From positions 4,502,501 to 4,566,500 of the forward strand of contig NZ_CP150919.1 of assembly GCF_039909015.1 (NCBI RefSeq): 64,000 nt of DNA, written 5' to 3'. Positions 17,080-43,303 of the stretch are shown here, in pieces. How positions within the stretch are numbered: the stretch's first letter is position 1; each line of letters opens with the position of its first letter. Made by a program: the position numbers and the translations under genes. The notes below the pieces were generated by a model. It searched no databases. It was not told where the DNA came from and saw nothing but the letters and a program-made list of their open reading frames with translations. Source of the DNA: Pseudomonas grandcourensis. GTDB lineage: Bacteria; Pseudomonadota; Gammaproteobacteria; Pseudomonadales; Pseudomonadaceae.

Positions 17080-18651
17080 TTACTTGGACGCTTTTAGAAT
17101 CCGATCGAAACCTGGCTCTGCCTTGGCGACCGACTGCTCGAAATCCGAGGCACTACGCAGGAGACGTTCGACGATGGCTGGCTCATTGGCCGCCTGATCA
17201 TATTTTTCACCTGGGTCGCGACCCAAGTGGTAAAGGGTCGGTTGGGGAAGCTTTCCATTTCGTCCACCGAAATGTGCACTCGCCTCATAGATATTGAGTT
17301 TCCAATCACCGTCTCGCCAGGCCATCAGCTTGCCGCCCAAGTAATAAGGCATCGTGTGGCGCGGACTATCCTTCCCACCTTTGAGAGTCACGGAGAGATC
17401 AACACCGTCGAGTTCGGCGACGGGTAACTTGGCGCCGGCCATCGCCACGAATGTGGGGAGCAGATCGTAGGTAGAACCAATGCCATGCACTACAGAAGGC
17501 TTGATGGTACCCGGCTGCCAGAACAAAGCCGGTACCCGTACGCCCCCTTCATAAGTGGACTTCTTGCCCTCACGCAGAACACCTGCCGAGCCAGACAGTG
17601 CCTCGAACCATAACCAAGGGCCGTTGTCGCTCACGAACACGACCAGCGTATCCTTGTCGTTTCCACCACTTCGCAATGCCTCGAGTACTCGACCGACACT
17701 GTGATCAAGTTCCGCGATGGCATCCCCAATACGTCCGCCCTTGCTCTTGCCCTCGAACTCGGGCCCGGCGAAGTGCGGTAAATGCGGCTTTTCGTATCCG
17801 ACCCAGACGAAAAAGGGCTGATCGTGTTTCTTGCCCACGTAATCGACGACTTGATCTGTCAATCGACGGTTGTAGGTTTTCTGGTCGATAGGACGCTCCA
17901 GTTCCTGGTCTTCGTAGCGAGCGTCAGTACCCGTCCCTACCCGCTTGCTGCTGATGAGCGGGGTATTCCACAACTCACTCTTAGGCTGGCTGAAACTCGC
18001 AGTTGCCTGGGCAAGGTATTCGCCAAAGATTTTCTTGAGCGGCTCACCGCTCATTGCTCGCTTCCGTAGTTGTTCATTAGTCACGCCGCCAACGAAATAA
18101 GCATCGTTGGACATAGGCGTTCCCCACCATTCATCGAATCCAACCCTGGTCGGATAGGCCGCTGCGGCATCTCCCAGATGCCACTTTCCAAACAAGGCAG
18201 TGCTATAGCCATTACCCTTCAGCACTTGGGCGATCGTGGCCTCCTTGTCCAGGAAGCTGTTCGGGTCATTCTCGACCACCACCGAATTGCTCACACCATA
18301 AAGCCCTGTTCTGGTTTCGACCCGCCCCGTGAGCATGGCACCACGGCTCGGCGAGCAGATCGGCGAACTCACATAGAAGTCGGTCCAGCGCTGGCCCTCT
18401 TGCGCCATGCGATCGATATTCGGAGTTTCGAACACTGGGTTGCCGTAGCTGGAGAGATCACCCCAGCCCATGTCGTCGGCAATCAACAGGACAATGTTTT
18501 GTCGCGCGGAGCTCGGCGCAGCCGGGGAAGCCTGGGCTTGCATCACCGCACTCAGGGCGCAGAAACCCAATGTTGCGACCACGCAACACCTTTTGCGAAA
18601 TGGCAGAAGCTCACCTGAGACAGGACGCGAGGGAAATGTGATGTCTTTCAT
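17080..18651 (-). CDS. Exported arylsulfatase-like sulfatase, S1 family
   Basis: 523 residues with a signal peptide (CVVATLGFCALSAVMQAQA). Motifs are VLLIADDMGWGDLSSYG (metal ligands), SSPICSPSRGAMLTGR with Cys99 as the formylglycine precursor, KWHLGD, and VFVSDNGPW. The layout is that of the arylsulfatase/N-acetylgalactosamine-6-sulfatase group, different from the sulfatase at 8660-10333, so the two probably attack different sulfate positions or intermediates. It is the first gene of the leftward locus; the inverted repeat at 18844-18863 lies 193 bases upstream. Confidence 0.93.
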   Translation of the reverse strand: MKDITFPSRPVSGELLPFRKRCCVVATLGFCALSAVMQAQASPAAPSSARQNIVLLIADDMGWGDLSSYGNPVFETPNIDRMAQEGQRWTDFYVSSPICSPSRGAMLTGRVETRTGLYGVSNSVVVENDPNSFLDKEATIAQVLKGNGYSTALFGKWHLGDAAAAYPTRVGFDEWWGTPMSNDAYFVGGVTNEQLRKRAMSGEPLKKIFGEYLAQATASFSQPKSELWNTPLISSKRVGTGTDARYEDQELERPIDQKTYNRRLTDQVVDYVGKKHDQPFFVWVGYEKPHLPHFAGPEFEGKSKGGRIGDAIAELDHSVGRVLEALRSGGNDKDTLVVFVSDNGPWLWFEALSGSAGVLREGKKSTYEGGVRVPALFWQPGTIKPSVVHGIGSTYDLLPTFVAMAGAKLPVAELDGVDLSVTLKGGKDSPRHTMPYYLGGKLMAWRDGDWKLNIYEASAHFGGRNGKLPQPTLYHLGRDPGEKYDQAANEPAIVERLLRSASDFEQSVAKAEPGFDRILKASK

Positions 18652-22878: not shown

Positions 22879-23162
22879 TTACGCGCCTGCGACAGCAGGG
22901 GTGTAACCAGACCGGAATCTGCGGTCGTGGGCCAGCAGCGCCCAAGCAATCCGGGCATTCTTGTTGGCCTGCGCAATGACTGCCACATTCGTGTTACGAC
23001 GCGTCAATAAACCCTTCAGCCAATCCGATGAGGGGTCGGCTTTACCTTCGGCGTAACGAACCACCGCTCGCGCACCGTGAACCAGCAATGTGCGCAAATA
23101 GCTATCGCCTCACTTGCTGATACCTAACAGCATGGACTTGCCTCCGCTCGAATGCTGTCGCG
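22879..23162 (-). pseudogene. IS110-family transposase, C-terminal remnant
   Basis: Reading the minus strand from about 23162 gives RQHSSGGKSMLLGISK, then an in-frame TGA, then GDSYLRTLLVHGARAVVR and NVAVIAQANKNARIAWALLA. That is the conserved C-terminal transposase_20 region of IS110/IS116/IS902 elements, where the stop replaces an Arg codon. Everything N-terminal of RQHSS is missing and joins a relaxase fragment on the other strand. It is inactive. Confidence 0.85.
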
Positions 23163-23731
23163 GCGGTGAAGCTATCGAGTCGGCCCTGGATCAGCCACAA
23201 GCAACTTCGGCCCAGGAAACGCCAGAGCCCTTACCTCCGAACCATGACTTCGACTATCTCGATGACTTGATGGATATGTTGCAAGAGACGGTTGAGCACG
23301 AGGATGAGTCGAGCGCTCAAGGACTGAAATCCTCAACTGCGTCACCCCGCGAGGCACCAGGGCTGGCCTTTGTCGACTGGCTACGCGAGGGGATTCAAAG
23401 CCATCGCCTGCTCGTCAACGACTGTAAGGCAAAGATTCACACAGTCGACGGCACGTTCTACCTGGTCACACCCGGCATTTTCCAGCGCTACGCTTCGGAG
23501 CACCCTGAGCTATCTGCAGGTGACGACAAGACCGATGCATGGCGGCGCACTCAACGTCACTTTGAGCACTTAGGCGTACATCTCAAACGACCAAACGGGC
23601 AGAACATATGGACTTGCACAGTGCAGGGCCCCCGCCGGAGGGCTTCCCTCAATGGCTACATGTTGCAAAATGCTGAAACTCTTCTGAGCCCTGTCCCTAC
23701 TGACAATCCTTTCCTCAATCTTACTTCTTAG
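23163..23731 (+). pseudogene. MobH-type (TraI) relaxase, C-terminal remnant
   Basis: The plus frame from 23163 to stop 23731 contains FVDWLREGIQSHRLLVNDCK, then AKIHTVDGTFYLVTPGIFQRYASEHPE and RPNGQNIWTCTVQGPR. This is the C-terminal domain of the TraI_2/MobH relaxases of large integrative and conjugative elements (the SXT, pKLC102 and PFGI-1 kinds). The N-terminal HD-like relaxase domain is gone and the left edge abuts the IS110 fragment. The open frame continues into 23114, but those first codons are antisense IS110 sequence. It is a relic of a conjugative element. Confidence 0.82.
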
Positions 23732-23763
23732 CATCGCAAGGGCAGCCCCATGCGCGCGTGGAG

Positions 23764-24210
23764 TGCCAGCGAAATAGTTCGCTGCCCCGAAAACGACCGT
23801 GTCGTTTTTTGGAAAACGGCGAGTGGTTAGGGACTTCATCTTCCAGGCTTAACCGGCAGAACCAGCGATACGCCAGGCTCAAATGGACCTCTTCGCACGA
23901 CCGACGCTCTGAGCGAATGCCGTAGCAATAGCCCACGATTAGCATGCGGATCATCAGCTCAGGATCAATCGACGGACGCCCAATCGGGCTGTAAAAATCG
24001 GCGAAGGAATGGCGCAAGTCGCTCAGATCGAGACACCGATCAATGCTGCGCAGAAGGTGATTGGCGGGGATGTGCTCTTCAAGGTTGAACGAGTAAAACA
24101 GCCGTTCCTGCCCACTCGATAACTGTCCCATCATGCTGCGTGCTTCCCTGCTGGCCAATGTAGAGATTTTGCCGCTAGCCAGACAGGGGAGCTACTTTTT
24201 CAACAGAATC
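23764..24210 (-). mobile_element. Truncated IS1182-type element, right end
   Basis: The minus frame starting at 24158 encodes about 130 residues nearly identical to the N-terminus of the intact transposase at 35917-37314 (MGQLSSGQERLFYSFNLE, GRPSIDPELMIRMLIVGYCY), then diverges near 23764. The terminal repeat GATTCTGTTGAAAAAGT lies at 24194-24210. Only the 5' third of the transposase survives, so this copy cannot move alone, though its single end might still be recognised. Confidence 0.85.
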
Positions 24211-24252: not shown

Positions 24253-24330
24253 GTGTGTAAAAACGCCTCCGCGAACCCTTGCTATGATTTCTGAGGATTT
24301 CATCGCAGGGATCGCCCATGAAGCGCTTTA
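24253..24330 (+). mobile_element. Left-end fragment of another insertion sequence
   Basis: GTGTGTAAAAACGCC, then a short leader and ATGAAGCGCTTT (24318-24329, Met-Lys-Arg-Phe) resemble the start of a transposase reading frame common in Pseudomonas insertion sequences. Homology stops at about 24330, where it meets the HNH gene. Recognition is by memory of the pattern, so the family stays open. Confidence 0.4.
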
Positions 24331-24968
24331 GGCGGATCCGCCCGCAACGTCTTACGGTCAGCGGCGTTTTGCAGATGACAATCCTTACACACGGCTTGTA
24401 GCGTCGCGCTCTGATGCGCCTGTAGCGTGTAGGCGAGAGCGGAGTTGTCTACAGGTAATGTGAAAGGTTGGTCGCTCCACCAATCGAAACCACGAAATGC
24501 GTTGCGAAACTCAGACGTCGTCATAAACTGCATCGCCTGACGGGCTATCGATTGGAATTCGGGATTCACATGATCCACTTCGGTAGAGGGAAGAACGCCA
24601 CAACGCTCACAGATCGGAAATGCAAGCCTTCGAGCGGATAAAAAGGGCGCTGATGCCAGGCGCAGTGCAGATTGAATCCAGTCGTTTTGATCCCTTGGAT
24701 CTAAGCACTGAGACCAAGACACCTTATGCCATCTACTTGGATCAAACAGACCATAAAAGTCATAGCCGCCACCAGGTCGATACAGCATGCGGAATTGGCT
24801 CGGCCGCAGATCGTGGACAGAGCAGTAGTAGTGTTTTTCGGCGATAAGGTCTGAGATCAAGTCGTCTTGAAAGACCTCCTCAAGCTCCCGCTCTTTCAGT
24901 CGTAACCGGATACAGGCTCGTAACTGAGCCTTGGTCATCCCTGCAAAAAAAGCTGCGCCTCGTGGCAT
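24300..24968 (-). CDS. HNH-like endonuclease protein, 3' end altered by IS
   Basis: 222 residues, AAGGAG upstream of ATG 24968. An HNH/zinc layout is visible: Cys120-x2-Cys123, then Asp132-His133 in EVDHVNPEF, then CKDCHLQNA with Cys194, Cys197 and His198. The middle Asp-His and final His would form the metal-binding nuclease site; the four cysteines would bind structural zinc. The N-terminal ~100 residues are not recognisable. The last nine residues (KALHGRSLR) are read antisense from an insertion-sequence end, so the original C-terminus has been lost. It diverges from the helicase-nuclease gene across a 251-base gap and may be its partner. Confidence 0.7.
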   Translation of the reverse strand: MPRGAAFFAGMTKAQLRACIRLRLKERELEEVFQDDLISDLIAEKHYYCSVHDLRPSQFRMLYRPGGGYDFYGLFDPSRWHKVSWSQCLDPRDQNDWIQSALRLASAPFLSARRLAFPICERCGVLPSTEVDHVNPEFQSIARQAMQFMTTSEFRNAFRGFDWWSDQPFTLPVDNSALAYTLQAHQSATLQAVCKDCHLQNAADRKTLRADPPKALHGRSLR

Positions 24969-25219
24969 GCTCTTGTCTCCTTACCATGATGGCCCACTGT
25001 ACTTTGACGCACTTGTGACGGCTTAGTAAAGACCGTTTCCGGTTAGCTGCTTGCGGTCTCGATATGTCGGGCGGTAGCGGAAACGCAAGTGTGTTGGCGC
25101 GGTCGAGCCAGAGCCAGTATTGTGACGCCCATCTCATTGTCATTTTTTGGATTGCTCTCGATACCGATTTCACGGGGTTTCGAGCAGCGAAGTCCAGTGT
25201 TCGTTTTTAGGGGAATCTA

Positions 25220-28200
25220 ATGGAAGCTCTGGGGCAGCAACTTCGGCCGGTCGCCACGCGGATCAGTCAGTACTTCCGCGACTTTTTAGACTCGGATTTC
25301 AAGCGTCAACAAGCTCCGCGCCGCCGAATCGTGCTGACCACCGACACCGGATTCAGATCGGGGATGCGTACCTCGCCCTACCCCTCCTTGGATCGCGACC
25401 TATGGAATCTATTGGGGCGTCCATCTAGCGAGGACCTGTCACTGACGATCGACCCACGGCGTTATACGCGTCCGATCAGTGATGTGCTTCGCAAAGTGAT
25501 CCACGAGCAAGTAAACGCCATCCCTGCTTCATCCCTACAAACTGTACATACTTCGGTGGAGGAACTAGCCGCAGAGTCCTACGCAAAAGCGATAGAAGAC
25601 CCGGAGTTGTGGGTGGAGTCAGTCCAAAACCACTTGGGCAGCAAAGTCGCCGAGCACATCATCAAGCCCCTGATTGCTCACCTGGATGGTCCACTGCGCA
25701 ATCAGGCGTACTGGGTAATGGACTCATTATTCGCCGCGGAGAAGGACCTCGTTGATCGTGTCTGCGGTGACCTATCCCGAGTCCTCCCAGAGCTGCTGGC
25801 CAAGCTGCTCGCCACCCAGGACTCAGCCCCGCTCAAGGAGGCGATCCCACAGTTCCTGACTCTTGAAGGAACTCGTCAGGCGCTGATGGTGTTCTTTGAA
25901 GGGTTTGTGGCGGCTGACGCCTACCACGAATTCCGCGATCTTGAGACCTATGTTGCCACCAGCGACGGGATGCAGCTCTACCTATACATCGGTGCAGTGA
26001 AGTACGGTGGAAACCAATACCCACTCTTCTTTCTTCCCATTGAGGTACAGAGGGAGGAAAAGGGGGCCGGCTTTAAGTTAAAGCTGCTTAACCAGCTTTA
26101 TACCAACCGCAAGGCTATCGACTTTATTCTGCAGGAGCTGGCTGCTGGGCTTGAACGCGCATGGGTTTCTCCGATCCCCGAACGAATCCATTACATCAAA
26201 CCCGAGCAGTCCATATACGAAGAGGCCCGCGTCCTGTTCCAGCGCGTAGCCAATGCCTTGGACCTCGGTGGCAAGATCAGCCTCTCCTCCTCTGCTACCG
26301 ATACCTCGACAATTGCGGTTGGGCTGTCCAGCTCTCTGTCCCTGGCTGCGTATGAACGTTCGGACGAGGCATTGCTCAACGACTACGAAGAGATCCTCGA
26401 AGCACTTAAGCATGGCGGATCGGCCGTGGTTGAACTGTTCGAGGGCATCGTTGGTGGTGTACTGCGCGAGAACCCCAAGTCCATCGCTGCTGCTGTGGAG
26501 ACCACCTGGGATGCGCTTCCGATGGTGGATCGAATGGTCTTCGACTCACCGATCCCCCTGAACGAAGAGCAACGCAAAGTATTGATTGCCGTGCGACAGC
26601 CTGAAGGAAAGATCGTTGTTGTCTCCGGCCCTCCAGGTACCGGCAAGAGCCATACGATCACAGCAATCGCCGCCGATTGCGCCTTTAATCAGCGCTCCTG
26701 TCTGGTGTTATCGGATAAGACCGAAGCGCTGGATGTGGTCTACGACAAACTGTCGGAAGCCATGTCACGCGTACGCCACGATCGTGATTTCCCGAATCCG
26801 ATACTGCGGCTCGGCCAGCAAGCCCATAACTTCCGCAAACTGACCTCGAATCAGGCTGTGACCCAGATCGGGGCCTACGCCAAGGCAATGAAGGCGAATC
26901 AGCCCCGGCTCGAAGAGGAGCGAAAAAGTCGGTCGGAGAACCTGAAGGAACAGATCAAGCTGACTGTGGCGACATTAGGCGCCATCGAAATGACCAGCGT
27001 ACAAGCAATGCTCAAAGACGAAACCGAGCTCGCTGAGCTTGCCCCGTCAGTACTGGAAGTGTTGAAACGCGCAAGTGGAGCCGGTCTGATTTCAGAGCTC
27101 GAGAGCATCACCGAGCACCTAACGGGGGTGGAACAGTATCTTCTTGAGGTCTTCTCGGAGGGAGACTTTAACCCACAAAGCCTTTGGAACAGAACGCGAA
27201 GGGATGCATTACTGGCAGCCTTCACTCAGGAACATTCTGACGCCCCATGGGATCTGTTCGAGTCGATGTCGTCCTCCCAACTGCGCACGCTTGGCGGACT
27301 TCTAGTCAGCTATGGTCAACTGAAGATGCCTCTGTTCGGTTACCTGTTCCGTGGCGCACAGGTGCGCGAAGTTGAACGTCAGCTTAATGCCCTACCCGTC
27401 AGCAGCCCCTTGCAGCTCAAGCAACGGCAAGCAATGTTATCCAACCTCGTTGAGGCGGCAAATAAGCTCCGATTGAAGCTTCAGAGCGAAGATCTAGAAG
27501 ACGAATTCGAGGGTTGTTATCGGCTGCTTACCCGAGGAAAAACGCCAAAACTCAACGCAGGCAATGCGGCAAAAGCCATGGCCATTCTGCGTCGTGTCGA
27601 TACCAAAATAGTGGATGTACTGCTTGAGCAACCAAAGGATGATGCCCGTCTCTGGCCCCTGTCCGTTCGGTTCCTGCACGGCTGGCTGCGCACTCGGGAG
27701 GCCTTCGCATCGGCGCCCCAGTATGATTATGCCGGCACCAAGACCCAGCTCGAGCGCCTCAACACCTCGGTCATGAACGCACACGTAGACACTCGCCTAC
27801 TGAGTTTCATGGAGAATTACCGCTCAGACGCACGGGCGCTAGCTGGCGTAATCGCTAACCGACAAAAATTTCCAGAAGACAAGTTCACGCACGTACGCGA
27901 GAGCTTCCCGGTCATCATCGCCAGTATTCGCGAGTTTGGTGAATACATGCCATTGGCCCCTGACATGTTCGACGTGGTGGTCATCGACGAGGCCTCACAG
28001 GTCTCAGTCGCCCAAGCATTACCGGCGCTACTACGCGCGAAGAAGGTCGTCGTGCTGGGCGATGACAAACAATTTTCAAACGTGAAATCGGCGAATGCCA
28101 GCATTGAGCAGAATGATAAGTACCGCAATGAGCTGAAAAACTATTTCACGACCCACGTCAGCGGCGCAGCCGACGCCCTACAGCGGCTGTCCATGTTCGA

Positions 28201-29557
28201 CGTTAAACGTTCCATTCTGGAATTCTGCAATCACGCGGCCTCATACTCAGTCATGCTGCGCAAGCACTTCCGCTCTTACCAGGAGCTAATCGGATACTCC
28301 TCGGGCACGTTTTATGGGCACCAATTGCAGGCCATCAAAATCCGCGGCATCCCGGTCGACGAAGTCATCCGATTCGACATAGTCGATACGACAGACAAGA
28401 GAGTGACACGAGGTACCAATGAAGCGGAGGCGGAGTTCATTCTTGACCGCCTTCTTGAGCTGATCGAGGAGGAATCGCCACCGACCGTAGGCATTATCTC
28501 GCCCTTTCGTGAACAGCAGACCCTACTGTCGAAGAAGCTGTTTAATCACCCCCGCGGGGCAGACTTCGAACGTCTGTTGCGGTTGAAGGTTATGACCTTC
28601 GACAGCTGCCAGGGAGAGGAACGGCACATCATTTTCTACTCGATGGTAGCGACGGCTGATGAGGATGCGCTCAACTATATCTTCCCGGTTGAACTGAGTG
28701 ACGCAGAACAGGCAGTGGAGCAAAAACTCAAGGTACAGCGTCTTAACGTCGGCTTTAGCCGCGCTCAGGAAATGATTTGGTTTGTTCACTCCAAGCCACT
28801 CAATGAGTTTCGCGGCGCCATCGGACAAGCGCTTAACCACTATGCGAACATTCTTGAGAACGCCAATAGAATACCTTCTGCCGAACACACCGATCAGTCC
28901 AGCCCTATGGAAGCCAAGGTTCTGGAGTGGTTTCGCCAGACCAAGTTCTATCAGTCCAATATCGACGCCATCGATGTCTTTGCTCAGTTCGAGATCGGAA
29001 CTTATCTCAAGCAACTTGACCCGACCTACGAGCATCCAAAATGGCGCGTTGACTTTCTGGTGACGTACCAGTCGAGCAAGGGCCCCATCCAGATCGTGAT
29101 CGAGTACGACGGCTTCGATTACCATTTTGCCAAGGGCAAACACGTTCACGTGGGCAATCACGAACGCTACCTGAATGAGGCCGACGTGGAACGCCAGCTA
29201 ACGCTGGAGAGCTACGGTTATCGGTTCCTACGCATCAATCGTTTCAACTTGGGTGACGACCCTGTCGCTACTATTTCAGATCGTCTTTACCAGTTAGTGG
29301 AAATTGCCGTGGGTGAGCAGATTTCAGAAGCGGTCAACCATATTCAGTCTCAGGCTCAAGGCCTGGCAAACAAAGAGCTCAAACCGTGCTCGAAATGCGG
29401 CCAAATTAGGGAAAAGACGGATTATTACGATCCGGCACTAGGCGGCGGTGCTGGCGGTTTCGGCCGCGTGTGCATGATCTGCAAGGGCAGCAAGGCCAGT
29501 TCCCAGACTGGGAAAACAACACAAACCGGTTTTCGCAAAAGCCGTCGCTGGGGATAA
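25220..29557 (+). CDS. SF1 helicase fused to PD-(D/E)XK nuclease and zinc ribbon
   Basis: 1445 residues; AGGGGA lies before ATG 25220. Residues ~1-440 match nothing I know. The UPF1-like SF1 core follows: Walker A GPPGTGKSHT near 470, a coiled insert of some 300 residues, Walker B VVVIDEASQVS near 922, motif III LGDDKQFSN near 946, FDSCQGEERH near 1126 and motif VI LNVGFSRAQEM near 1173. Residues ~1250-1370 look like a Vsr/MTES_1575-type nuclease: MEAKVLEWF, WRVDFLV (Asp), IVIEYDGFDYHF (Glu-x-Asp), then YGYRFLRINRFNL. CSKCG near 1390 and CMIC near 1417 make a C-terminal zinc ribbon. The single-protein helicase-nuclease plan, the island setting and the divergent HNH gene point to phage or plasmid defence; this is inference. 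Confidence 0.85.
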   Translation: MEALGQQLRPVATRISQYFRDFLDSDFKRQQAPRRRIVLTTDTGFRSGMRTSPYPSLDRDLWNLLGRPSSEDLSLTIDPRRYTRPISDVLRKVIHEQVNAIPASSLQTVHTSVEELAAESYAKAIEDPELWVESVQNHLGSKVAEHIIKPLIAHLDGPLRNQAYWVMDSLFAAEKDLVDRVCGDLSRVLPELLAKLLATQDSAPLKEAIPQFLTLEGTRQALMVFFEGFVAADAYHEFRDLETYVATSDGMQLYLYIGAVKYGGNQYPLFFLPIEVQREEKGAGFKLKLLNQLYTNRKAIDFILQELAAGLERAWVSPIPERIHYIKPEQSIYEEARVLFQRVANALDLGGKISLSSSATDTSTIAVGLSSSLSLAAYERSDEALLNDYEEILEALKHGGSAVVELFEGIVGGVLRENPKSIAAAVETTWDALPMVDRMVFDSPIPLNEEQRKVLIAVRQPEGKIVVVSGPPGTGKSHTITAIAADCAFNQRSCLVLSDKTEALDVVYDKLSEAMSRVRHDRDFPNPILRLGQQAHNFRKLTSNQAVTQIGAYAKAMKANQPRLEEERKSRSENLKEQIKLTVATLGAIEMTSVQAMLKDETELAELAPSVLEVLKRASGAGLISELESITEHLTGVEQYLLEVFSEGDFNPQSLWNRTRRDALLAAFTQEHSDAPWDLFESMSSSQLRTLGGLLVSYGQLKMPLFGYLFRGAQVREVERQLNALPVSSPLQLKQRQAMLSNLVEAANKLRLKLQSEDLEDEFEGCYRLLTRGKTPKLNAGNAAKAMAILRRVDTKIVDVLLEQPKDDARLWPLSVRFLHGWLRTREAFASAPQYDYAGTKTQLERLNTSVMNAHVDTRLLSFMENYRSDARALAGVIANRQKFPEDKFTHVRESFPVIIASIREFGEYMPLAPDMFDVVVIDEASQVSVAQALPALLRAKKVVVLGDDKQFSNVKSANASIEQNDKYRNELKNYFTTHVSGAADALQRLSMFDVKRSILEFCNHAASYSVMLRKHFRSYQELIGYSSGTFYGHQLQAIKIRGIPVDEVIRFDIVDTTDKRVTRGTNEAEAEFILDRLLELIEEESPPTVGIISPFREQQTLLSKKLFNHPRGADFERLLRLKVMTFDSCQGEERHIIFYSMVATADEDALNYIFPVELSDAEQAVEQKLKVQRLNVGFSRAQEMIWFVHSKPLNEFRGAIGQALNHYANILENANRIPSAEHTDQSSPMEAKVLEWFRQTKFYQSNIDAIDVFAQFEIGTYLKQLDPTYEHPKWRVDFLVTYQSSKGPIQIVIEYDGFDYHFAKGKHVHVGNHERYLNEADVERQLTLESYGYRFLRINRFNLGDDPVATISDRLYQLVEIAVGEQISEAVNHIQSQAQGLANKELKPCSKCGQIREKTDYYDPALGGGAGGFGRVCMICKGSKASSQTGKTTQTGFRKSRRWG

Positions 29558-29633
29558 CGTCTACAGGGCGGCCACAAACGGCTGCCCTGCATTTACGTTG
29601 ATCGCTGGATGTTCCTTCTGATCGATAGAAATA

Positions 29634-29671
29634 GGTCGATTGCAACCCTTCTCAGCAGGCAGCAATCGGCC
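29634..29671. repeat. REP-like imperfect palindrome next to element end
   Basis: GGTCGATTGC ... GCAATCGGCC, one mismatch between 10-base arms, 18-base centre. A related sequence follows the truncated IS1182 end (from 24211) and a half site follows the intact one (from 37367). It looks like a dispersed intergenic repeat used as an insertion site. Confidence 0.6.
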
Positions 29672-29848
29672 GATTCTGTTGAGAAAGTCGGTCTTGGTTT
29701 CTATGGCCAAAAAGTAAGCGTTTGAGATTGAAATATTGAATTGTCGCGAAGACATTCGGACTCGGATTTCACATAGCAGCGTACTAAAAAGGTGCGTTCA
29801 CCGATCAGTCTCTGGCAATTTGAGAAAACCGACTTTTTCAACAGAAAC
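29672..29848. mobile_element. 177-base MITE with IS1182-type ends
   Basis: The ends GATTCTGTTGAGAAAGTCGGT (29672 on) and, inverted, GTTTCTGTTGAAAAAGTCGGT (29848 back) agree at 19 of 21 positions and match the GATTCTGTTGAAAAAGTCGG end of the intact element at 35758. There is no coding capacity inside. It is probably mobilised in trans by the IS1182-type transposase. Confidence 0.7.
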
Positions 29849-30316
29849 GTGTCTGAGACCACCGATATCGTTAGCGCAGTTGGTAGTGCAATCTCGGCAC
29901 TTGCGGCCGGCGTAGCTGCGGCCGGCGTCTGGTACGCACGACACTAGCTAAAGACCAGTCGTGAGATCGCGCAGCTGCAATTCGAAGACGCCTTGGGGAA
30001 GGAATATCGCGAATTGGCCGGTGAACTGTCGAAGAAAGCTTTAATGGGCGAGTGCTTAAACGACGACGAATATGAAGAGGCCTTCGACGAACTGTATCGA
30101 TATGTTGATCTGATCAACGAGCAAGTTTCGCTCCGAGCACGTGGACGCATTGTTTCGGATGTATGGCAAAGTTGGTTGGAGGAAATTGAAGCGAACTTGA
30201 ATCTACTGGTATTCGCGCAGGCGTGGACCGAGATCAAGAGTAGATCCAAGGGTTTGGAGGAGCTTCGCCGCCTTGAGCGAGAAAAGTTAAAGAGCGACCC
30301 AAAGTATTGGCGGTAA
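29849..30316 (+). pseudogene. Single-span membrane protein gene with in-frame amber codon
   Basis: From GTG 29849 the frame reads SETTDIVSAVGSAISALAAG, VAAAGVWYARH, then TAG at 29945-29947, then LKTSREIAQLQFEDALGKEY and on to the stop at 30316. Ignoring the TAG gives about 155 residues: one N-terminal transmembrane helix, then a charged cytoplasmic domain. The family is familiar from prophages and islands as a small membrane-anchored hypothetical, and its members usually have Gln or Ser at the TAG position. The start codon abuts the end of the MITE, so the native 5' end may have been replaced. The part after the TAG could restart at ATG-less GTG/TTG codons near 29993. Confidence 0.65.
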
Positions 30317-35757: not shown

Positions 35758-37366
35758 GATTCTGTTGAAAAAGTCGGATTTTCAGCTGGCCTGAACTAAG
35801 GCACGACCACCATCGGAGAACCTACTCACCACATCGAGTGGTTTCTCGGCTCTTCGTTGACCTTTGCTGCTCTGTTATTGGGTTAATTTGAGGTTTTTTG
35901 CTTCGTGCAGGCGCACCTATCCCGTGGCAGGTGGCCCTTGAGATGTAAATTTGGCCAGCCGTCGCAGGTTCTGCACCGCAGCGGCCAGCGTGAATTCATC
36001 AGTCGCGCCACTCATGCCACGTAGTCGCAGGCGATCCAATTTCAGGATGCGCTTGAGGTGGGCAAACAACATTTCGACCTTCTTACGTTCGTGGCGAGAG
36101 CGCACGTACCCAGGTGTCGCTGCGATTCGCCGAGCCACATCGCGCGCGGCTTCATGGACGCTGCGGGCGATCTTGCGGCACGCAGTGTTCGGGCAGCACT
36201 TGGCTTTCATCAGACAGGCAACGCAGTCGGTCTGCCGGGATCGGAAGATAATGGTGTTGGCTTTGGTGACGTGTGAACGCTCATTTTTGAAGGCTCGCCA
36301 TTCGCTGCGCAATGGGTTTCCGGCCGGGCAGCGGTATTCCTCAGCCTCTTCATTCCAGTGGAAATCGTTGCTCGAAAAACTGTTGTTCTTGCGCTCGGTT
36401 TTGTCCCACACCGGCACATGCGGCTCGATGTCTTTTTCCTCCACCATCCAGGCCAGCATCGGCGCGGTGCCGTAAGCGGTGTCGCCAATAAGGCGCTCCG
36501 GCTTGATGTCGAACTGCGCTTCGACCCGTTCGATCATCGTCTTGGTGCTCTCGACTTCTGCGGTTCGATGAGCCGGTGTGGGTTCCACGTCCATGATCAC
36601 GCCGTGCTCGGTATCGATCAGATAATTCGTGGAATAAGCGTAGAACGCTGGGCCACCTGGAGCTGCGGTCCAGCGGGCTTGAGGATCAGTCAGCGATAGG
36701 CGCTTCGGTAGCGTTTCGGCCAGAGCCTCTTCATCGAGTGCCTCAAGATACTCACGCACGGCGCGGGTGCTCAGGGCCGGATCGTTCCAGTTGACCGGTT
36801 CATCACCCGGTACACCGCGCTGCCGGCTGGCATCCGCTTTGATGATGCTGGCGTCCACGGCAAAGCCTTCGCCCTTGACCAGGCCGGCGTCCATGCAACG
36901 ACGCAGCACTTCGTTGAACAGCCAGCGAAACAAATCGCTGTCCCGAAAACGGCCGTGCCTATTTTTGGAAAAGGTCGAGTGATTGGGGACTTCATCTTCA
37001 AGGCTTAACCGGCAGAACCAGCGATACGCCAGGTTCAAATGGGCTTCTTCGCACAGCCGACGCTCTGAGCGAATGCCGTAGCAATAGCCCACGATCAGCA
37101 TGCGGATCATCAACTCAGGGTCAATCGACGGACGCCCAATTGGGCTGTAAAAATCGGCGAGGTAATGGCGCAAGTCGCTCAGATCGAGACACCGATCAAT
37201 GCTACGCAGAAGGTGATTGGCGGGGATGTGGTCTTCAAGGTTGAACGAGTAAAACAGCCGTTCCTGCCCACTCGATAACTGTCCCATCATGCTGCGTGCT
37301 TCCCTGCTGGCCAATGCAGAGATTTTGCCGCAGGCCAGACAGGGGAGCTACTTTTTCAACAGAATC
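35758..37366 (-). mobile_element. Complete IS1182-type insertion sequence
   Basis: 1609 bases bounded by 17-base perfect inverted repeats GATTCTGTTGAAAAAGT at 35758-35774 and, inverted, 37350-37366. It carries one transposase gene. No clear target duplication is seen (GGTT left, GGCC right). The right end is followed by GGCCGATTTCTGCCTGTCGC, one half of the REP-like repeat seen beside related ends in this window. Confidence 0.88.
35917..37314 (-). CDS. IS1182-family transposase
   Basis: 465 residues, full length. The N-terminal DUF772 domain (GRPSIDPELMIRMLIVGYCY, LAYRWFCRLSLEDEVPNHST) is followed by a DDE catalytic domain: FAVDASIIKADA (first Asp), GDTAYGTAPML (second Asp) and a C-terminal Glu-containing stretch RKKVEMLFAHLKRILKLDRL. 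The frame is intact, so the element may be active, and it could act on the 177-base MITE and on the truncated copy at 23764. Confidence 0.93.
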   Translation of the reverse strand: MASREARSMMGQLSSGQERLFYSFNLEDHIPANHLLRSIDRCLDLSDLRHYLADFYSPIGRPSIDPELMIRMLIVGYCYGIRSERRLCEEAHLNLAYRWFCRLSLEDEVPNHSTFSKNRHGRFRDSDLFRWLFNEVLRRCMDAGLVKGEGFAVDASIIKADASRQRGVPGDEPVNWNDPALSTRAVREYLEALDEEALAETLPKRLSLTDPQARWTAAPGGPAFYAYSTNYLIDTEHGVIMDVEPTPAHRTAEVESTKTMIERVEAQFDIKPERLIGDTAYGTAPMLAWMVEEKDIEPHVPVWDKTERKNNSFSSNDFHWNEEAEEYRCPAGNPLRSEWRAFKNERSHVTKANTIIFRSRQTDCVACLMKAKCCPNTACRKIARSVHEAARDVARRIAATPGYVRSRHERKKVEMLFAHLKRILKLDRLRLRGMSGATDEFTLAAAVQNLRRLAKFTSQGPPATG

Positions 37367-37895: not shown

Positions 37896-38198
37896 TCAGA
37901 CTTCCGTCTGCTCCGCCATTTCCAAGGCATCATCGACCTCGACTCCCAGGTACCTAACAGTGCTTTCAAGCTTCGTATGACCTAGTAAGAGTTGGACGGA
38001 CCTCAGGTTCTTTGCCCTGCGATAGATCAAAGAAGCCTTGGTTCTCCGAAGCGTGTGAGTACCGTACATGGTTGGATCAAGGCCAATGGCTGCCACCCAA
38101 TCTTTGACTATTCGAGCGTATTGTCTGGTGGAAAGATGGTCTGAGGCGTGCAACCAGCTCGGGCACAAGAAATCCTCGCCGCGAAGGCACTTTTGAGC
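37896..38198 (-). pseudogene. Tyrosine integrase, C-terminal catalytic remnant
   Basis: Reading from about 38198 gives QKCLRGEDFLCPSW, HLSTRQYARIVKDWVAAIGL, then YGTHTLRRTKASLIYRRAKN and SVQLLLGHTKLESTVRYLGV. These contain the catalytic His-x2-Arg, Gly-His and nucleophile Tyr of phage-type integrases. A stop codon and unrelated sequence lie before it, so the N-terminal DNA-binding domain is gone. It sits downstream of the 3' end of tRNA-Pro, where the integrase of a tRNA-inserted element would be. Confidence 0.85.
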
Positions 38199-38593: not shown

Positions 38594-38606
38594 CTTTAAG
38601 AATAAA

Positions 38607-38683
38607 TGGTCGGGACGGAGTGATTCGAACACTCGACCCCTAGCACCCCATGCTAGTGCGCTACCGGACTGCGCTACGCCCCG
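38607..38683 (-). tRNA. tRNA-Pro (anticodon GGG)
   Basis: 77 bases including encoded CCA. The acceptor stem CGGGGCG pairs with CGTCCCG, the anticodon stem CTAGC/GCTAG encloses loop ATGGGGT with anticodon GGG, and the T-arm has GTTCGAATC. tRNA-Pro upstream of the MerR/ihfA/pheST block is a well-used integration site in Pseudomonas, which fits the integrase remnant beside it. Confidence 0.95.
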
Positions 38684-38772: not shown

Positions 38773-39129
38773 TTATTTCTTGAGTACCACCAGAACATCT
38801 TCGAGCTCGGCGATCATCTGGCGGATCATTTGCTTGTATTGGGTGGTGTCGTCTTTGGCTTCATCACCGGACAAACGCAGGCGCGCACCGCCGATGGTGA
38901 ACCCCTGATCATAAAGAAGCGCCCGGATCTGCCGGATCATCAGCACGTCCTGGCGCTGATAATACCGGCGGTTTCCGCGGCGTTTGACAGGGTTGAGTTG
39001 AGGAAACTCCTGCTCCCAGTAGCGCAGCACGTGCGGTTTTACCGCACACAGCTCGCTGACTTCACCAATGGTGAAGTAGCGTTTGCCCGGGATGACGGGG
39101 AGCTCGTCGTTATGACTTGGTTCCAGCAT
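38773..39129 (-). CDS. MerR-family regulator downstream of ihfA
   Basis: 118 residues from ATG 39129 ([19 protein letters not shown]); the frame is open to 39138. The MerR winged helix [20 protein letters not shown] and [20 protein letters not shown] is of the MlrA/YcgE subgroup. It overlaps the ihfA stop by 20 bases, a conserved arrangement in Pseudomonas, where it ends the infC-pheST-ihfA operon. The regulated genes are unknown. Confidence 0.93.
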
Positions 39130-39412
39130 AAGCCTCAACTCGGGCCTTCAACTTCTGCCCTGGACGAAAGGTGACCACACGGCGAGCCGTGATCGGGATT
39201 TCTTCCCCCGTTTTCGGATTGCGGCCAGGCCGCTGGCGTTTGTCCCGAAGGTCGAAATTGCCGAAACCGGACAATTTGACTTGTTCGTTGTCTTCAAGAG
39301 CGTGCCTGATTTCTTCAAAAAACAGTTCGACCAATTCCTTGGCCTCCCGTTTGTTCAGGCCCAGCTCTTCATACAGACGTTCCGCCATCTCAGCTTTCGT
39401 CAGAGCCCCCAT
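39110..39412 (-). CDS. ihfA: Integration host factor alpha subunit
   Basis: 100 residues. [20 protein letters not shown] and the DNA-contacting arm region [20 protein letters not shown] define IHF-alpha of the bacterial DNA-bending HU family; it pairs with IhfB to bend DNA sharply at specific sites. It starts 4 bases after the pheT stop, as in most gamma-proteobacteria, so it is co-transcribed with pheST. Confidence 0.97.
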
Positions 39413-39415
39413 ACG

Positions 39416-41794
39416 TCACTTCCTTAACGTGGCGTTCAACCTTTGTTCGAGCGAGGTGAGGATGTTTTGCGTTGCAGTATTCACCTCATCGTCATTAAGA
39501 GTGCGCGATGGATGCTGCCAGGTCAAGCCGACTGCGAGGCTTTTTCTATCAGGATCAATGCCTTTACCCTGATACACGTCAAATAGCCTGAGGTCTGTCA
39601 GCCATTCGCCTGCATTTTCACGGATTACGTCCAGTACAGCCGTGGCTGCAACGTCTTTATGCGCAATCAGTGCAAGGTCACGACGCACTTCAGGAAAGCG
39701 CGATAACTCGTGGAATTTAGGCATTTTGCCCGACGCCACTTCCGCCAGAACCAGCTCGAAGACGAACACCGGACGGTCGAGACCGAGAGTTTTCGACAAT
39801 TCAGGGTGGATCGCGCCAATGAAGCCGACCAGACGACCGTCACGTTCGATGCGCGCGGTTTGACCCGGGTGCAGCGCTGGGTGCTTGCCGGGCACGAAAG
39901 TGAACGCATCCAGGGCACCGGCGAAGCCCAGCACCGCTTCCACGTCAGCCTTGACGTCGAAGAAGTCGACGGTATCGCGACCCTGCGCCCAGCCTTCCGG
40001 CAGACGGCTACCGCAAACAACACCCGCCAACATCGGTTCTTGCTTCAGACCTTCAAGCTGGCCAACGAAACGCAGGCCGCTTTCGAACAGACGCACGCGA
40101 TCCTGCTGACGGTTCAGGTTGTGCTGAAGCGCCTTGACCAGACCCGGCCACAGCGACGAACGCATGGCGGCCATGTCATTGGAGATCGGATTGGCCAGCA
40201 GCAACGGCTCCACACCCGGATTAAACAGCTCGAACTGTTTCGGATCGATGAAGCTGTAGGTAATAGCTTCCTGATATCCACGGGCAACCAGCAGGCGGCG
40301 CAGTTCAGGCAGGTCGCTACGGGCTTCTGCCTTGGCTTGCGGCGCCAGACGCGCTTGCGGGTAACGAACCGGCAAACGGTTGTAGCCGTACAGGCGTGCC
40401 AGCTCTTCGATCAGGTCGACTTCCAGGCTGATATCGAAGCGATGGCTCGGCACTTCTACACGCCACTGCCCTGCCCCGTCGGCAGTAATGGTCAGGCCCA
40501 GGGCATTAAGCAGACGCTCCACTTCAGCCGAGTCCATTTCCATACCCAGCATCTGGGTAATGCGCTGGGCGCGCAGGGTGATCGGAGCAATTTTCGGCAG
40601 GTGCTGTTCGCTGACGGTCTCGATGATCGGACCCGCTTCACCACCGGTGATTTCCAGCAGCAAGCCAGTTGCGCGCTCCATGGCTTCGCGGGCCAGCTGC
40701 CAGTCCACACCACGCTCATAGCGATGGGATGCATCGGTGTGCAGGCCATAGGAACGGGCCTTGCCCGCTACGGCGATCTGGTCGAAGAAGGCGCTTTCCA
40801 GGAACACATCACGGGTGGTCGCGGAAACACCGCTGTGCTCGCCACCCATGACGCCGGCGATTGCCAGTGCGCGGGAGTGGTCGGCAATTACCAGCGTATC
40901 GCTACGCAGGGTAACTTCCTGACCGTCGAGCAGCACCAGCTTCTCGCCCTCTTCGGCCATGCGCACACGGATGCCACCGTTGATTTCGGCGAGATCGAAG
41001 GCGTGCAGCGGCTGACCCAGTTCGAGCATCACGTAGTTGGTGATGTCGACGGCAGCATCGATGCTGCGCACATCAGCACGACGCAAGCGCTCAACCATCC
41101 ACAGCGGCGTAGGCCTGGACAGGTCGACGTTACGAATCACACGACCGAGGTAGCGCGGGCACGCGGCGGGCGCCAGCACTTCTACCGAGCGCACTTCGTC
41201 GTGGGCGGCAGGAACCGAAGCCACCACCGGACGGACCACAGGAGCGGCGTACAGGGCACCGACTTCACGGGCCAGACCGGCCAGGGACAGGCAGTCGCCG
41301 CGGTTCGGGGTCAGATCGACCTCGATGCTGGCGTCTTCCAGGTCCAGATAAACGCGGAAATCCTTGCCTACCGGCGCATCGGCCGGCAGTTCCATCAGGC
41401 CGTCATTACCTTCACCGACCTGCAGCTCGGATTGCGAGCACAGCATGCCGTTGGACTCAACGCCACGCAGCTTGGCCTTCTTGATCTTGAAGTCGCCTGG
41501 CAGCTCGGCACCGATCATGGCGAAAGGAATCTTCAGGCCCGGGCGCACGTTTGGCGCACCGCAAACAACCTGGAAGGTTTCCGAACCGTTGCTGACCTGG
41601 CACACGCGCAGTTTGTCGGCATCCGGGTGCTGCTCGGTGCTCAGCACCTCGCCAACGACCACGCCACTGAAAACACCGGCGGCCGGCGTAACGCTATCGA
41701 CCTCAAGACCGGCCATCGACAGACGGGCAACCAGCTCGTCGCGACTTACCTGCGGGCTAACCCAGCCACGCAGCCATTGTTCACTGAATTTCAT
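39416..41794 (-). CDS. pheT: Phenylalanyl-tRNA synthetase beta subunit
   Basis: 792 residues. It forms the (alpha-beta)2 enzyme charging tRNA-Phe. In order: EMAP-like tRNA-binding domain (GVVVGEVLSTEQHPDADKLR near residue 45), B3/B4 editing domain, B5 domain, the inactive synthetase-like core, and the C-terminal ferredoxin-fold anticodon-binding domain (SRFPEVRRDLALI near 700). Length and domain order are those of E. coli PheT. A 704-codon frame on the opposite strand is a shadow. Confidence 0.98.
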   Translation of the reverse strand: MKFSEQWLRGWVSPQVSRDELVARLSMAGLEVDSVTPAAGVFSGVVVGEVLSTEQHPDADKLRVCQVSNGSETFQVVCGAPNVRPGLKIPFAMIGAELPGDFKIKKAKLRGVESNGMLCSQSELQVGEGNDGLMELPADAPVGKDFRVYLDLEDASIEVDLTPNRGDCLSLAGLAREVGALYAAPVVRPVVASVPAAHDEVRSVEVLAPAACPRYLGRVIRNVDLSRPTPLWMVERLRRADVRSIDAAVDITNYVMLELGQPLHAFDLAEINGGIRVRMAEEGEKLVLLDGQEVTLRSDTLVIADHSRALAIAGVMGGEHSGVSATTRDVFLESAFFDQIAVAGKARSYGLHTDASHRYERGVDWQLAREAMERATGLLLEITGGEAGPIIETVSEQHLPKIAPITLRAQRITQMLGMEMDSAEVERLLNALGLTITADGAGQWRVEVPSHRFDISLEVDLIEELARLYGYNRLPVRYPQARLAPQAKAEARSDLPELRRLLVARGYQEAITYSFIDPKQFELFNPGVEPLLLANPISNDMAAMRSSLWPGLVKALQHNLNRQQDRVRLFESGLRFVGQLEGLKQEPMLAGVVCGSRLPEGWAQGRDTVDFFDVKADVEAVLGFAGALDAFTFVPGKHPALHPGQTARIERDGRLVGFIGAIHPELSKTLGLDRPVFVFELVLAEVASGKMPKFHELSRFPEVRRDLALIAHKDVAATAVLDVIRENAGEWLTDLRLFDVYQGKGIDPDRKSLAVGLTWQHPSRTLNDDEVNTATQNILTSLEQRLNATLRK

Positions 41795-41820
41795 CCTGCT
41801 CTCCTAAGAATTCGTTACGA

Positions 41821-42891
<1,071 letters not shown>

Positions 42892-42946
42892 ATGACGTTT
42901 AACACCTGGCCCCACAGATGCGAGGCCGGGTGACTGTCGGGGGTAC

Positions 42947-43303
42947 TTAAGCCAAGGTGGCTTTAGCTTTCTCGACAATCGCAGCAAACGCCGCTTTTTC
43001 GTTCACTGCCAGATCAGCCAGAACCTTACGGTCGATCTCGATGGACGCTTTTTTCAGGCCGGCGATGAAACGGCTGTAGGACAGACCGTTGATACGAGCA
43101 CCAGCGTTGATACGAGCGATCCACAGAGCGCGGAACTGACGTTTTTTCTGACGACGGTCACGGTAGGCGTATTGGCCTGCCTTGATTACCGCTTGCTTGG
43201 CAACACGGAATACGCGGGAGCGTGCGCCGTAGTAGCCTTTAGCAAGTTTCAGAATTTTTTTGTGACGCTTACGGGCAATGACGCCACGCTTTACACGAGC
43301 CAT
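42947..43303 (-). CDS. rplT: 50S ribosomal protein L20
   Basis: 118 residues, the usual length. [20 protein letters not shown] and the following [20 protein letters not shown] are unmistakable L20. It is needed for early 50S assembly and in many bacteria represses the infC-rpmI-rplT messenger. It is 28 bases after rpmI. Confidence 0.98.

Follow-up and report, generated by a model that had tools for sequence, protein, structure and literature searches.

The 64,000-nucleotide stretch of the Pseudomonas grandcourensis genome analysed here (the window; positions 4,502,501 to 4,566,500 of NZ_CP150919.1) contains an island of mobile-element debris with a large gene that joins a helicase to a nuclease, raising the question of whether this gene defends its host and, if so, whether it acts alone or with the HNH gene beside it. 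An earlier note on this DNA proposed a defence system made of both. The two reading frames that it described are present: one of 1445 residues on the plus strand (25220..29557) and a divergent one of 222 residues on the minus strand (24300..24968), separated by a 251 bp gap and both on a mobile segment. From the sequence comparisons below, we conclude that the helicase-nuclease gene is probably a stand-alone, horizontally mobile anti-invader cassette, with phage defence as its predicted role.

Domains of the helicase-nuclease protein

The UPF1-like helicase recognised in the earlier note is confirmed by Pfam matches to AAA_11 (68 bits) and AAA_12 (PF13087, 72 bits), both above their cut-offs; the latter is the second RecA-like domain (residues 996-1189, 28205..28786; this and all features of the protein given below are on the plus strand). 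A search of the PDB with the family profile returned UPF1/RENT1 as the top relatives, with NAM7 also among the closest solved helicases; with the single 1445-aa sequence as query, SMUBP-2 was the best match. Walker A (GPPGTGKS, residues 470-477, 26627..26650) is invariant in both family alignments (A1 and A2), as are D923, E924 and S926 of motif II in A2 (DEAS, residues 923-926, 27986..27997). Between Walker A and motif II, and positioned between conserved blocks of A1 and A2, is a poorly conserved stretch of ~350 residues (about 535-890, 26822..27889).

The C-terminal part carries a predicted PD-(D/E)XK nuclease of a divergent Vsr/MTES_1575 type (residues about 1225-1345, 28892..29254). The Pfam match to MTES_1575 (PF18741, residues 1266-1352, E 5e-4) reaches 20.5 bits, below the cut-off of 38.2, but D1278, E1295, D1297 and H1302 are invariant in the eight rows of A2, window protein included, and a profile built from two sibling nucleases gives a match with a score of 48 (maximum of 60 column shuffles, 20.4); the assignment made in the earlier note holds. 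Against it stand the nuclease matches in a comparison with whole DUF4011/MTES_1575 giants, which were only weak (probability 18% or less). The four-Cys zinc ribbon that the note had also seen (29387..29482) is upheld by C1390, C1393, C1418 and C1421, which are invariant in the same eight rows.

The earlier note left the N-terminal 440 residues unrecognised. This stands for all but residues 248-311 (25961..26152), a beta module with a weak match to the DUF4011 profile (hhalign, 22 sequences: score 29.9, P 0.0025, HH probability 12%). None of 100 column shuffles reached that score (shuffle maximum 25.5), and DUF4011 does not appear for this protein among the Pfam matches listed; the likeness is suggestive only. 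An AlphaFold2 model of residues 1-460, run with a 9-sequence alignment, predicts a helical bundle at residues 88-247 (25481..25960), with 10-residue pLDDT means of 75-96 and one block at 58. A fold search with the predicted N-terminus returned generic helical bundles alone, none of them significant.

Comparison with a 96%-identical copy gives a dN/dS of 0.044 over the gene and 0.026 in the nuclease, values that indicate purifying selection. The helicase and nuclease residues are unchanged across Pseudomonas, a Bacillota plasmid and IMG/VR contigs.

Cassette borders and the HNH gene

Homology blocks delimit the gene on both sides. On the helicase side, the match to the L001 locus spans 25095-29589 and the matches to L068 span 25045-26253 and 29336-29591; on the HNH side, 24329-25076 matches L090. 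The blocks meet in the intergenic gap, in a border zone at 25045..25095, and the HNH and helicase genes thus appear to be two independent cassettes placed side by side. Just 3′ of the helicase-nuclease stop codon is a GC-rich hairpin on the plus strand (29564..29589; z −5.6 for 29555-29604), a possible terminator, and homology to L001 and L068 stops at its edge. The gene is thus, as judged from these blocks, a self-contained cassette of about 25045/25095-29591 with the hairpin included.

The HNH protein has a Pfam HNH score of 16.1 bits (cut-off 21.4), a Cys/His pattern kept in eight sequences, the window's included, and no PADLOC match. The available DNA around 11 helicase relatives (L001-L007, L016, L028-L030) showed no HNH match; of these, L007 is practically flankless and L005, L028 and L029 have a short flank on one side. 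In the seven other Pseudomonas genomes with a strong HNH match, no match to the helicase reaches E 1e-20. The two genes do co-occur once more, in the G1032 genome, where the HNH gene and a truncated helicase lie on a 99.8%-identical copy of the window's island. HNH relatives also lie beside or near defence-type ATPases, namely a Ppl-like SMC (135.5 bits) and a Lamassu-like SMC (96 bits), and one is two ORFs from Gabija (GajA 1081 bits, GajB 878 bits). As a conserved partner of the helicase, proposed earlier, the HNH gene is not supported.

A tRNA-bounded island beside a defence hotspot flank

Copies of the 3′ half of tRNA-Pro(ggg) (38607..38683, minus strand; 3′ half 38603-38651) flank the helicase-nuclease gene at genome positions 4486711 and 4541103, the latter in the tRNA itself, and the tRNA-bounded island proposed in the earlier note is thereby established. 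Its debris includes the C-terminal fragment of a TraI_2 relaxase (23114..23731, plus strand; Pfam TraI_2_C, 141.7 bits), an IS1182-type transposase (35917..37314, minus strand), a fragment of a similar transposase (23721-24158), and an integrase C-terminal fragment (37896..38168, minus strand; Pfam Phage_integrase, 40.5 bits). A second Pseudomonas species has an island 99.8% identical to this one, while its tRNA-Pro core region is 96% identical, pointing to horizontal transfer of the island. No named defence system was recognised in it by a PADLOC run on the two window proteins.

The location tells more than the earlier note knew. Minus-strand ORFs at 38773..43303, named by eye from their translations, encode MerR, IhfA, PheT, PheS and RplT, and merR-ihfA-pheTS-rplT is the left flank of the P. 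aeruginosa defence hotspot cDHS1, whose right flank is described as having DUF4011 and radical SAM genes (PMC10250203). The left flank adjoins the island; the right-flank genes were not seen in the window, and the DUF4011 gene of this genome is about 1.65 Mb distant from the window locus. The presence of the helicase-nuclease gene here suggests that the tRNA-Pro/ihfA/pheT landing site, described as a defence hotspot in P. aeruginosa, has a similar use in a second Pseudomonas.

Distribution and neighbourhoods of relatives

Full-length relatives are few and scattered, in Pseudomonas, Lysobacter, MAGs, a Priestia plasmid and IMG/VR contigs. Within the genus, 398 genomes yielded one full-length copy and two truncated ones; the class-level sample has one full-length copy in 369 genomes and the phylum-level sample one in 398. 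The genus count is not that of a housekeeping helicase. The four Pseudomonas copies encountered include two truncated ones. In a helicase tree, the eight full-length members placed form one clade (100/100) apart from the Hhe/PDC-S37 giants; both belong to one group of 21 rows (99/99, with long-branch warnings), outside which the MkoC rows of Mokosh fall.

Carriers are of differing element types: a chromosomal island, a Bacillota plasmid, a terminase-bearing contig and an Hma locus. The L029 gene has a reverse transcriptase gene on one side and a serine recombinase with a terminase on the other, and the L003 locus has an integrase adjoining predicted tRNA genes. A clear named defence system is nearby in two family loci only: L002, with an FRG/PDC-S15 gene as well as Dsr1 (449 bits), and L030, whose homologue begins ~155 bp after HmaC, with HmaB and HmaA further upstream and a methylase gene of a kind seen beside no other member. 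A sibling gene lies 63 bases after brxL. Read by eye, the neighbours of L004, L005 and L028 include no named defence system, and no element gene is conserved beside family members.

Proposed function and alternatives

For substrate, direction, gating and defence phenotype, we infer the following. The UPF1-like SF1 motor would load on single-stranded DNA or RNA from invader replication or transcription and translocate, probably 5′ to 3′, its ATPase being gated by the helical bundle and the DUF4011-like beta module at the N-terminus. Cutting would fall to the Vsr/MTES_1575-type nuclease, with the zinc ribbon helping to hold the substrate. As a methylase gene was seen beside L030 only, the distinction between self and non-self would depend mostly on how the nucleic acid is structured or what state it is in, and not on a methylation mark. 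UPF1-like helicases also work in repair and RNA turnover, so resemblance to them is not in itself a sign of defence. We counted for defence the invariant residues, the low dN/dS, the patchy spread, the island beside the cDHS1 left flank, and some defence neighbours; against it we counted the named systems near two loci only, the unseen right flank, and a nuclease below the Pfam cut-off.

A more far-reaching reading, less likely than not, is single-gene defence: a compact UPF1-like helicase with a Vsr-type nuclease, a DUF4011-like gate and a zinc ribbon would travel among islands, plasmids and prophages as a cassette that brings along its own upstream region and terminator-like hairpin. In certain genomes it would also act as a plug-in effector attached to methylation-based systems (Hma; for the sibling, BREX). 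An unlikely alternative is abortive infection acting on RNA, where viral or stalled RNA triggers the motor and RNA degradation by the nuclease arrests the cell. UPF1/RENT1 and NAM7 are RNA surveillance helicases, truncation of two of four Pseudomonas copies is expected for a costly gene, and CoCoNuT, whose UPF1-like CnuH helicases go together with HEPN, Vsr or PLD effectors, is predicted by its authors to target RNA (PMC11090510). Yet the RxxxxH (HEPN) motif was not found in the window protein, where the looser Rx4-6H occurs twice at sites not common to all relatives; one homologue is linked to Hma, a DNA-methylase system; and the tails of L029 and L030 have eight Cys, with a second ribbon that is DNA-topoisomerase-like by eye. 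Vsr itself, moreover, cuts DNA.

Maintenance of integrative elements (replication, repair or transfer), with no part in defence, is a still more doubtful role: members do lie on a repeat-bounded segment, a plasmid, IMG/VR contigs and the L003 integrase/tRNA locus, and the window's island has a relaxase fragment, but the carriers are unrelated element types with no conserved adjoining element gene by eye, and the cassette, hairpin included, moves by itself. A two-gene system of helicase and HNH protein is very improbable; the divergent arrangement, the second co-occurrence and the defence-type neighbours of HNH relatives speak for it, and the 11 relatives and seven HNH genomes for which no match to the other gene was found, together with the sharp cassette border, speak against it.

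In several large defence proteins, an SF1 helicase and a Vsr-type nuclease come together with N-terminal domains about which little is understood. With a compact, stand-alone, sharp-bordered member, one can ask in practice if the helicase and nuclease are enough by themselves, what part the DUF4011-like module plays, and if one effector can act both on its own and when joined to Hma- or BREX-like systems.

Comparison with known defence systems

The earlier note held the protein to be related to, yet distinct from, known defence helicases. This is borne out: no named PADLOC or NCBIfam system covers the full domain order, and none of the PADLOC, NCBIfam and Pfam matches listed for the 1445-aa protein covers it entirely. 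In PADLOC searches up to E 1, neither window protein matches a HamA or HamB model of Hachiman or any Hma model. In Hma (HmaABC; DUF499-centred and BREX-related), the L030 homologue comes as an additional gene behind a complete HmaA/B/C set, and Hma genes were seen beside no other family member. HmaA is of Swi2/Snf2 type (PMC12839542), and the family differs from it in this respect. The BREX-associated AAA helicase-nuclease of Acinetobacter pittii (p1_100020, directly after brxL) shares 28% identity in the helicase and a Vsr-type nuclease by profile match; it differs in its length of 1576 aa, in leaving the four-Cys ribbon unmatched and in its separate tree branch.

Mokosh type II (MkoC) resembles the family in the SF1 helicase core (124.5 bits in PADLOC; hhalign probability 99.3), but the family's N- and C-termini have no match to MkoC, its C-terminus is of PD-(D/E)XK type, and no PLD nuclease appears among the best 25 of 27 Pfam matches at E up to 1. 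The Hhe/PDC-S37/MTES_1575 giants consist of DUF4011, an SF1 helicase, a Vsr-type REase and DUF3320. They share with the family the helicase group in the tree, the nuclease family by motif and possibly a DUF4011-like module; the family differs in having a four-Cys ribbon instead of DUF3320 (absent among the Pfam matches listed), in lacking a conserved HEPN motif and in forming a separate clade (100/100). The window protein scores 80.6 bits against the NCBIfam Hhe model (cut-off 2000), and PDC-S37 is its best partial PADLOC match (143 bits, best stretch residues 909-1187 only); as a yardstick, the DUF4011 giant of the same genome scores 1190 bits.

CnuH of CoCoNuT type III-B is described (PMC11090510) as a UPF1-like SF1 helicase fused directly to a Vsr-like PD-(D/E)XK nuclease, as in the family, and in it too Walker A is followed by a long stretch. 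The family adds a C-terminal zinc ribbon to that description, and its N-terminal region looks different, in a comparison with CnuH by description only. CoCoNuT type III-B has a wHTH at the N-terminus of the helicase; for the window protein, the model of this region predicts a helical bundle and a beta module, and the fold search returned no significant match. The McrB-like GxPGxGK[ST] motif of CnuB was absent, the helicase itself apart, from called ORFs of at least 150 aa at 10 loci, with flanks of up to 8 kb per side (shorter in L005, L028 and L029). CoCoNuT type III-B CnuH and the Hhe/PDC-S37 giants are the closest published designs, and the protein looks like an unnamed variant of this known kind of defence protein.

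Conserved residues and domains of the helicase-nuclease

The helicase-nuclease gene (25220-29557, + strand, by ORF calling) encodes a protein of 1445 residues in which both helicase halves, AAA_11 and AAA_12, score above the Pfam cut-offs. The top solved-structure match of the family profile is UPF1/RENT1 (E ~9e-12), and that of the window sequence compared alone is SMUBP-2. Residues 1266-1352 match MTES_1575, a Vsr-type nuclease family, with an E value of 5e-4 that falls under the curated Pfam cut-off. In an alignment of eight full-length rows, window included, we find that the Walker A motif and motif II (D923, E924, S926), the nuclease residues D1278, E1295, D1297 and H1302, and the ribbon cysteines C1390, C1393, C1418 and C1421 are invariant (8/8). 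The tails of the homologues at L029 (2035-6615) and L030 (7974-12569) carry eight cysteines, and by eye their C-termini appear to hold a second ribbon that reads like the topoisomerase C4 type. Comparison with the 96%-identical copy of Pseudomonas sp. 10-1B yielded dN/dS values of 0.044 overall, 0.026 for the nuclease and 0.090 for the ribbon part, indicating that every part of the protein is under purifying selection.

The AlphaFold2 model of the N-terminus, built with nine sequences, is fair (pLDDT 73.6): residues 45-380 are mostly at pLDDT 75-96, with one block at 58, and residues 381-460 are poor. Helices are predicted at 88-247, while the predicted strands lie at 251-295, 323-325 and 367-379; a fold search with the model gave no significant match. 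A 22-sequence profile comparison of residues 248-311 with the DUF4011 core scored 29.9 (P 0.0025); 100 column shuffles reached 25.5 at best (median 14.7), reversal 13.8 and control domains 10.8-16.7. Equivalent placement ahead of the helicase aids the likeness. As the HH-suite probability is 12% and earlier comparisons with smaller sequence sets had a mixed outcome, a DUF4011-like character of residues 248-311 is only suggestive. The DUF4011 gene of the window genome lies at 2.88 Mb.

Distribution of relatives

Peptide patterns run against 84,980 species genomes matched 26 stretches, eight of which encode relatives. These lie at seven loci: Pseudomonas 10-1B, P. fluorescens H24, two Lysobacter, and Xanthomonadaceae, Hydrogenophilales and Mycoplasmataceae MAGs, the last on a 3.4-kb contig. 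Of 178 matching plasmid records, a single one, from Priestia megaterium (33% identity), spans 80% or more of the query, and IMG/VR yielded three loci (L028-L030), the same three in a second search. The window's own copy was the one full-length copy in the whole genomes of 57 relatives, in 369 genomes of the class (E 1e-40) and in 398 of the phylum (E 1e-30), where two other matches cover the helicase part only. A genus search (398 genomes, E 1e-60) returned three matches: the window's own, G1032, whose copy stops at residue 1248, and G998, whose copy comprises residues 1-352 and is the same match as in P. fluorescens H24 (L006). This search found no match in G1034, a genome of the window's species.

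A tree of the helicase domain, which took in 29 of 31 rows after a length filter removed L030 and L007, placed the eight family rows used in one clade (100/100). This clade is nested in a 99/99 group that also holds DUF4011 giants together with the BREX sibling, proteins that are helicase only, and one other protein, within a tree that has long-branch warnings and no settled branching order.

Borders and deleted copies

In window coordinates, DNA homology extends over 25095-29589 with L001, a locus of a relative, and over 25045-26253 and 29336-29591 with P. fluorescens H24 (L068); homology of the HNH gene with L090, the locus of an HNH relative, covers 24329-25076. From these extents, the blocks of the two genes meet in intergenic space. 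Judged by sequence, the helicase-nuclease and the HNH gene each have a separate history. A hairpin at 29564-29589 (folding z -5.6) coincides with the right edge of helicase-nuclease homology and is found, with changes, in L001 and L068 too. Upstream of the helicase-nuclease gene, the + strand yielded no sigma-70-like promoter. Of the four copies seen in Pseudomonas, two carry deletions: that of G1032 lacks DNA corresponding to window 28962-29932, so that nuclease and ribbon are missing, and that of H24 lacks residues ~351 to ~1373.

The HNH gene in other loci

The HNH gene (24300-24968, - strand, by ORF calling; 222 residues) has matches in 10 of 199 genus genomes, eight of them strong, the window's own included. 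None of the other seven strong genomes has a helicase-nuclease at E 1e-20, searched with a query that does recover the window's own genome in the genus search. The flanking DNA available for L001-L007, L016 and L028-L030 gave no HNH match; among the loci of helicase-nuclease relatives, the gene occurs only in L067, the G1032 copy of the island. Of its own relatives, the one in L090 is encoded divergently to a Ppl-like SMC ATPase (tested, 135.5 bits), and L091 and L092 have a similar ORF by eye. L094, which was tested, places a relative next to a Lamassu-like SMC (96 bits) and an nSTAND3 protein, and L095 looks alike by eye. In L093 a relative lies two ORFs away from Gabija (GajA 1081 bits, GajB 878 bits). 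No defence-type ATPase was seen near the relative in L096. The HNH gene appears to travel by itself as an accessory of defence loci, and the family, which in Pseudomonas recurs close to several kinds of defence-type ATPase, may be a general accessory nuclease of such loci. The window, L090, L091 and L092 each show it transcribed away from an NTPase gene at a distance of ~230-255 bp.

A tRNA-Pro island

Beyond the tRNA-Pro(ggg) gene (38607-38683), ORFs read by eye as MerR, IhfA, PheT, PheS and RplT. The left flank of cDHS1, the P. aeruginosa core defence hotspot, is described as PheS, PheT, rplT, a MerR regulator, ihfA and a proline tRNA (PMC10250203). The tRNA-Pro 3' half (window 38603-38651) occurs five times over 226 kb (genome 4314999-4541151), at 4314999, 4333717, 4344255, 4486711 and 4541103, the last being the tRNA itself. 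These positions put the helicase-nuclease gene (genome 4527720-4532054) between the last two copies, which bound a segment of 54 kb. In G1032 at least 10 copies are spread over ~310 kb (2.30-2.61 Mb), and we read the repeats of both genomes as integrative elements arrayed at a single tRNA gene. The integrase adjoining tRNA-Pro is a fragment. The island is 99.8% identical to the G1032 copy over ~20 kb and the tRNA-Pro core DNA 96%, which points to recent horizontal transfer. No other defence system was recognised in the window's island (PADLOC on two window proteins, Pfam on eight, the rest by eye). Sulfatase-like genes, by eye, at 8660-10333 and 17080-18651 lie in the same segment, so the island is not dedicated to defence.

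Neighbours of relatives and siblings

Two loci of the family have a clear named system close by, and a few others have suggestive genes; none was recognised in the rest. The L030 homologue lies ~155 bp past HmaC (418 bits), on the same strand, with HmaB (429 bits) and HmaA (649.5 bits, covering 5-1132 of the 1176 profile positions) upstream; Hma/DUF499 systems are described in PMC8565338 and PMC12839542. Between HmaA and HmaB, a 430-residue ORF (685-1974) matches nothing in Pfam or PADLOC at E 0.001. Within 7 kb, L002 carries Dsr1 (449 bits) as well as FRG/PDC-S15 (50 bits), and L003 has a TIR gene ~7 kb off and an integrase next to predicted tRNA genes. In these two Xanthomonadaceae loci, DUF4236 proteins of similar length (L003 7867-8976, L002 13385-14485) directly adjoin the helicase-nuclease, on its upstream side in one locus and on its downstream side in the other.

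L029 has a reverse transcriptase without clear class on one side and a serine recombinase and terminase on the other. L001 has an adjacent PrlF/YhaV toxin-antitoxin pair, the L016 plasmid a 'damage repair protein' and a YolD-like gene (both as annotated), and L006/L068 a DUF4062-WD40 protein that matched nothing in PADLOC at E 1e-5. Nothing was recognised by eye beside L004, L005 and L028. Among the siblings, one of 28% identity on Acinetobacter pittii plasmid p1_100020 lies 63 bases after brxL, and one in Variovorax precedes a GIY-YIG nuclease, AbiE genes lying ~4 kb further on.

Proposed action and comparison with known systems

The anatomy of the helicase-nuclease fits a motor-nuclease that would process DNA or RNA of invaders and have no obligatory partner for modification. 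The findings are at the level of sequence; substrate, polarity, gating and defence role are inferred. The nearest published design is CnuH of CoCoNuT type III-B, which, as described in PMC11090510, has the helicase class and a fused Vsr-like nuclease in common with it; unlike that system, no McrB-like motif was found near the helicase-nuclease. The Hhe/PDC-S37 giants share its helicase group and nuclease family but differ in the tail; MTES_1575-type giants are described in PMC3710099. With Mokosh type II, the window protein has only the helicase core in common.
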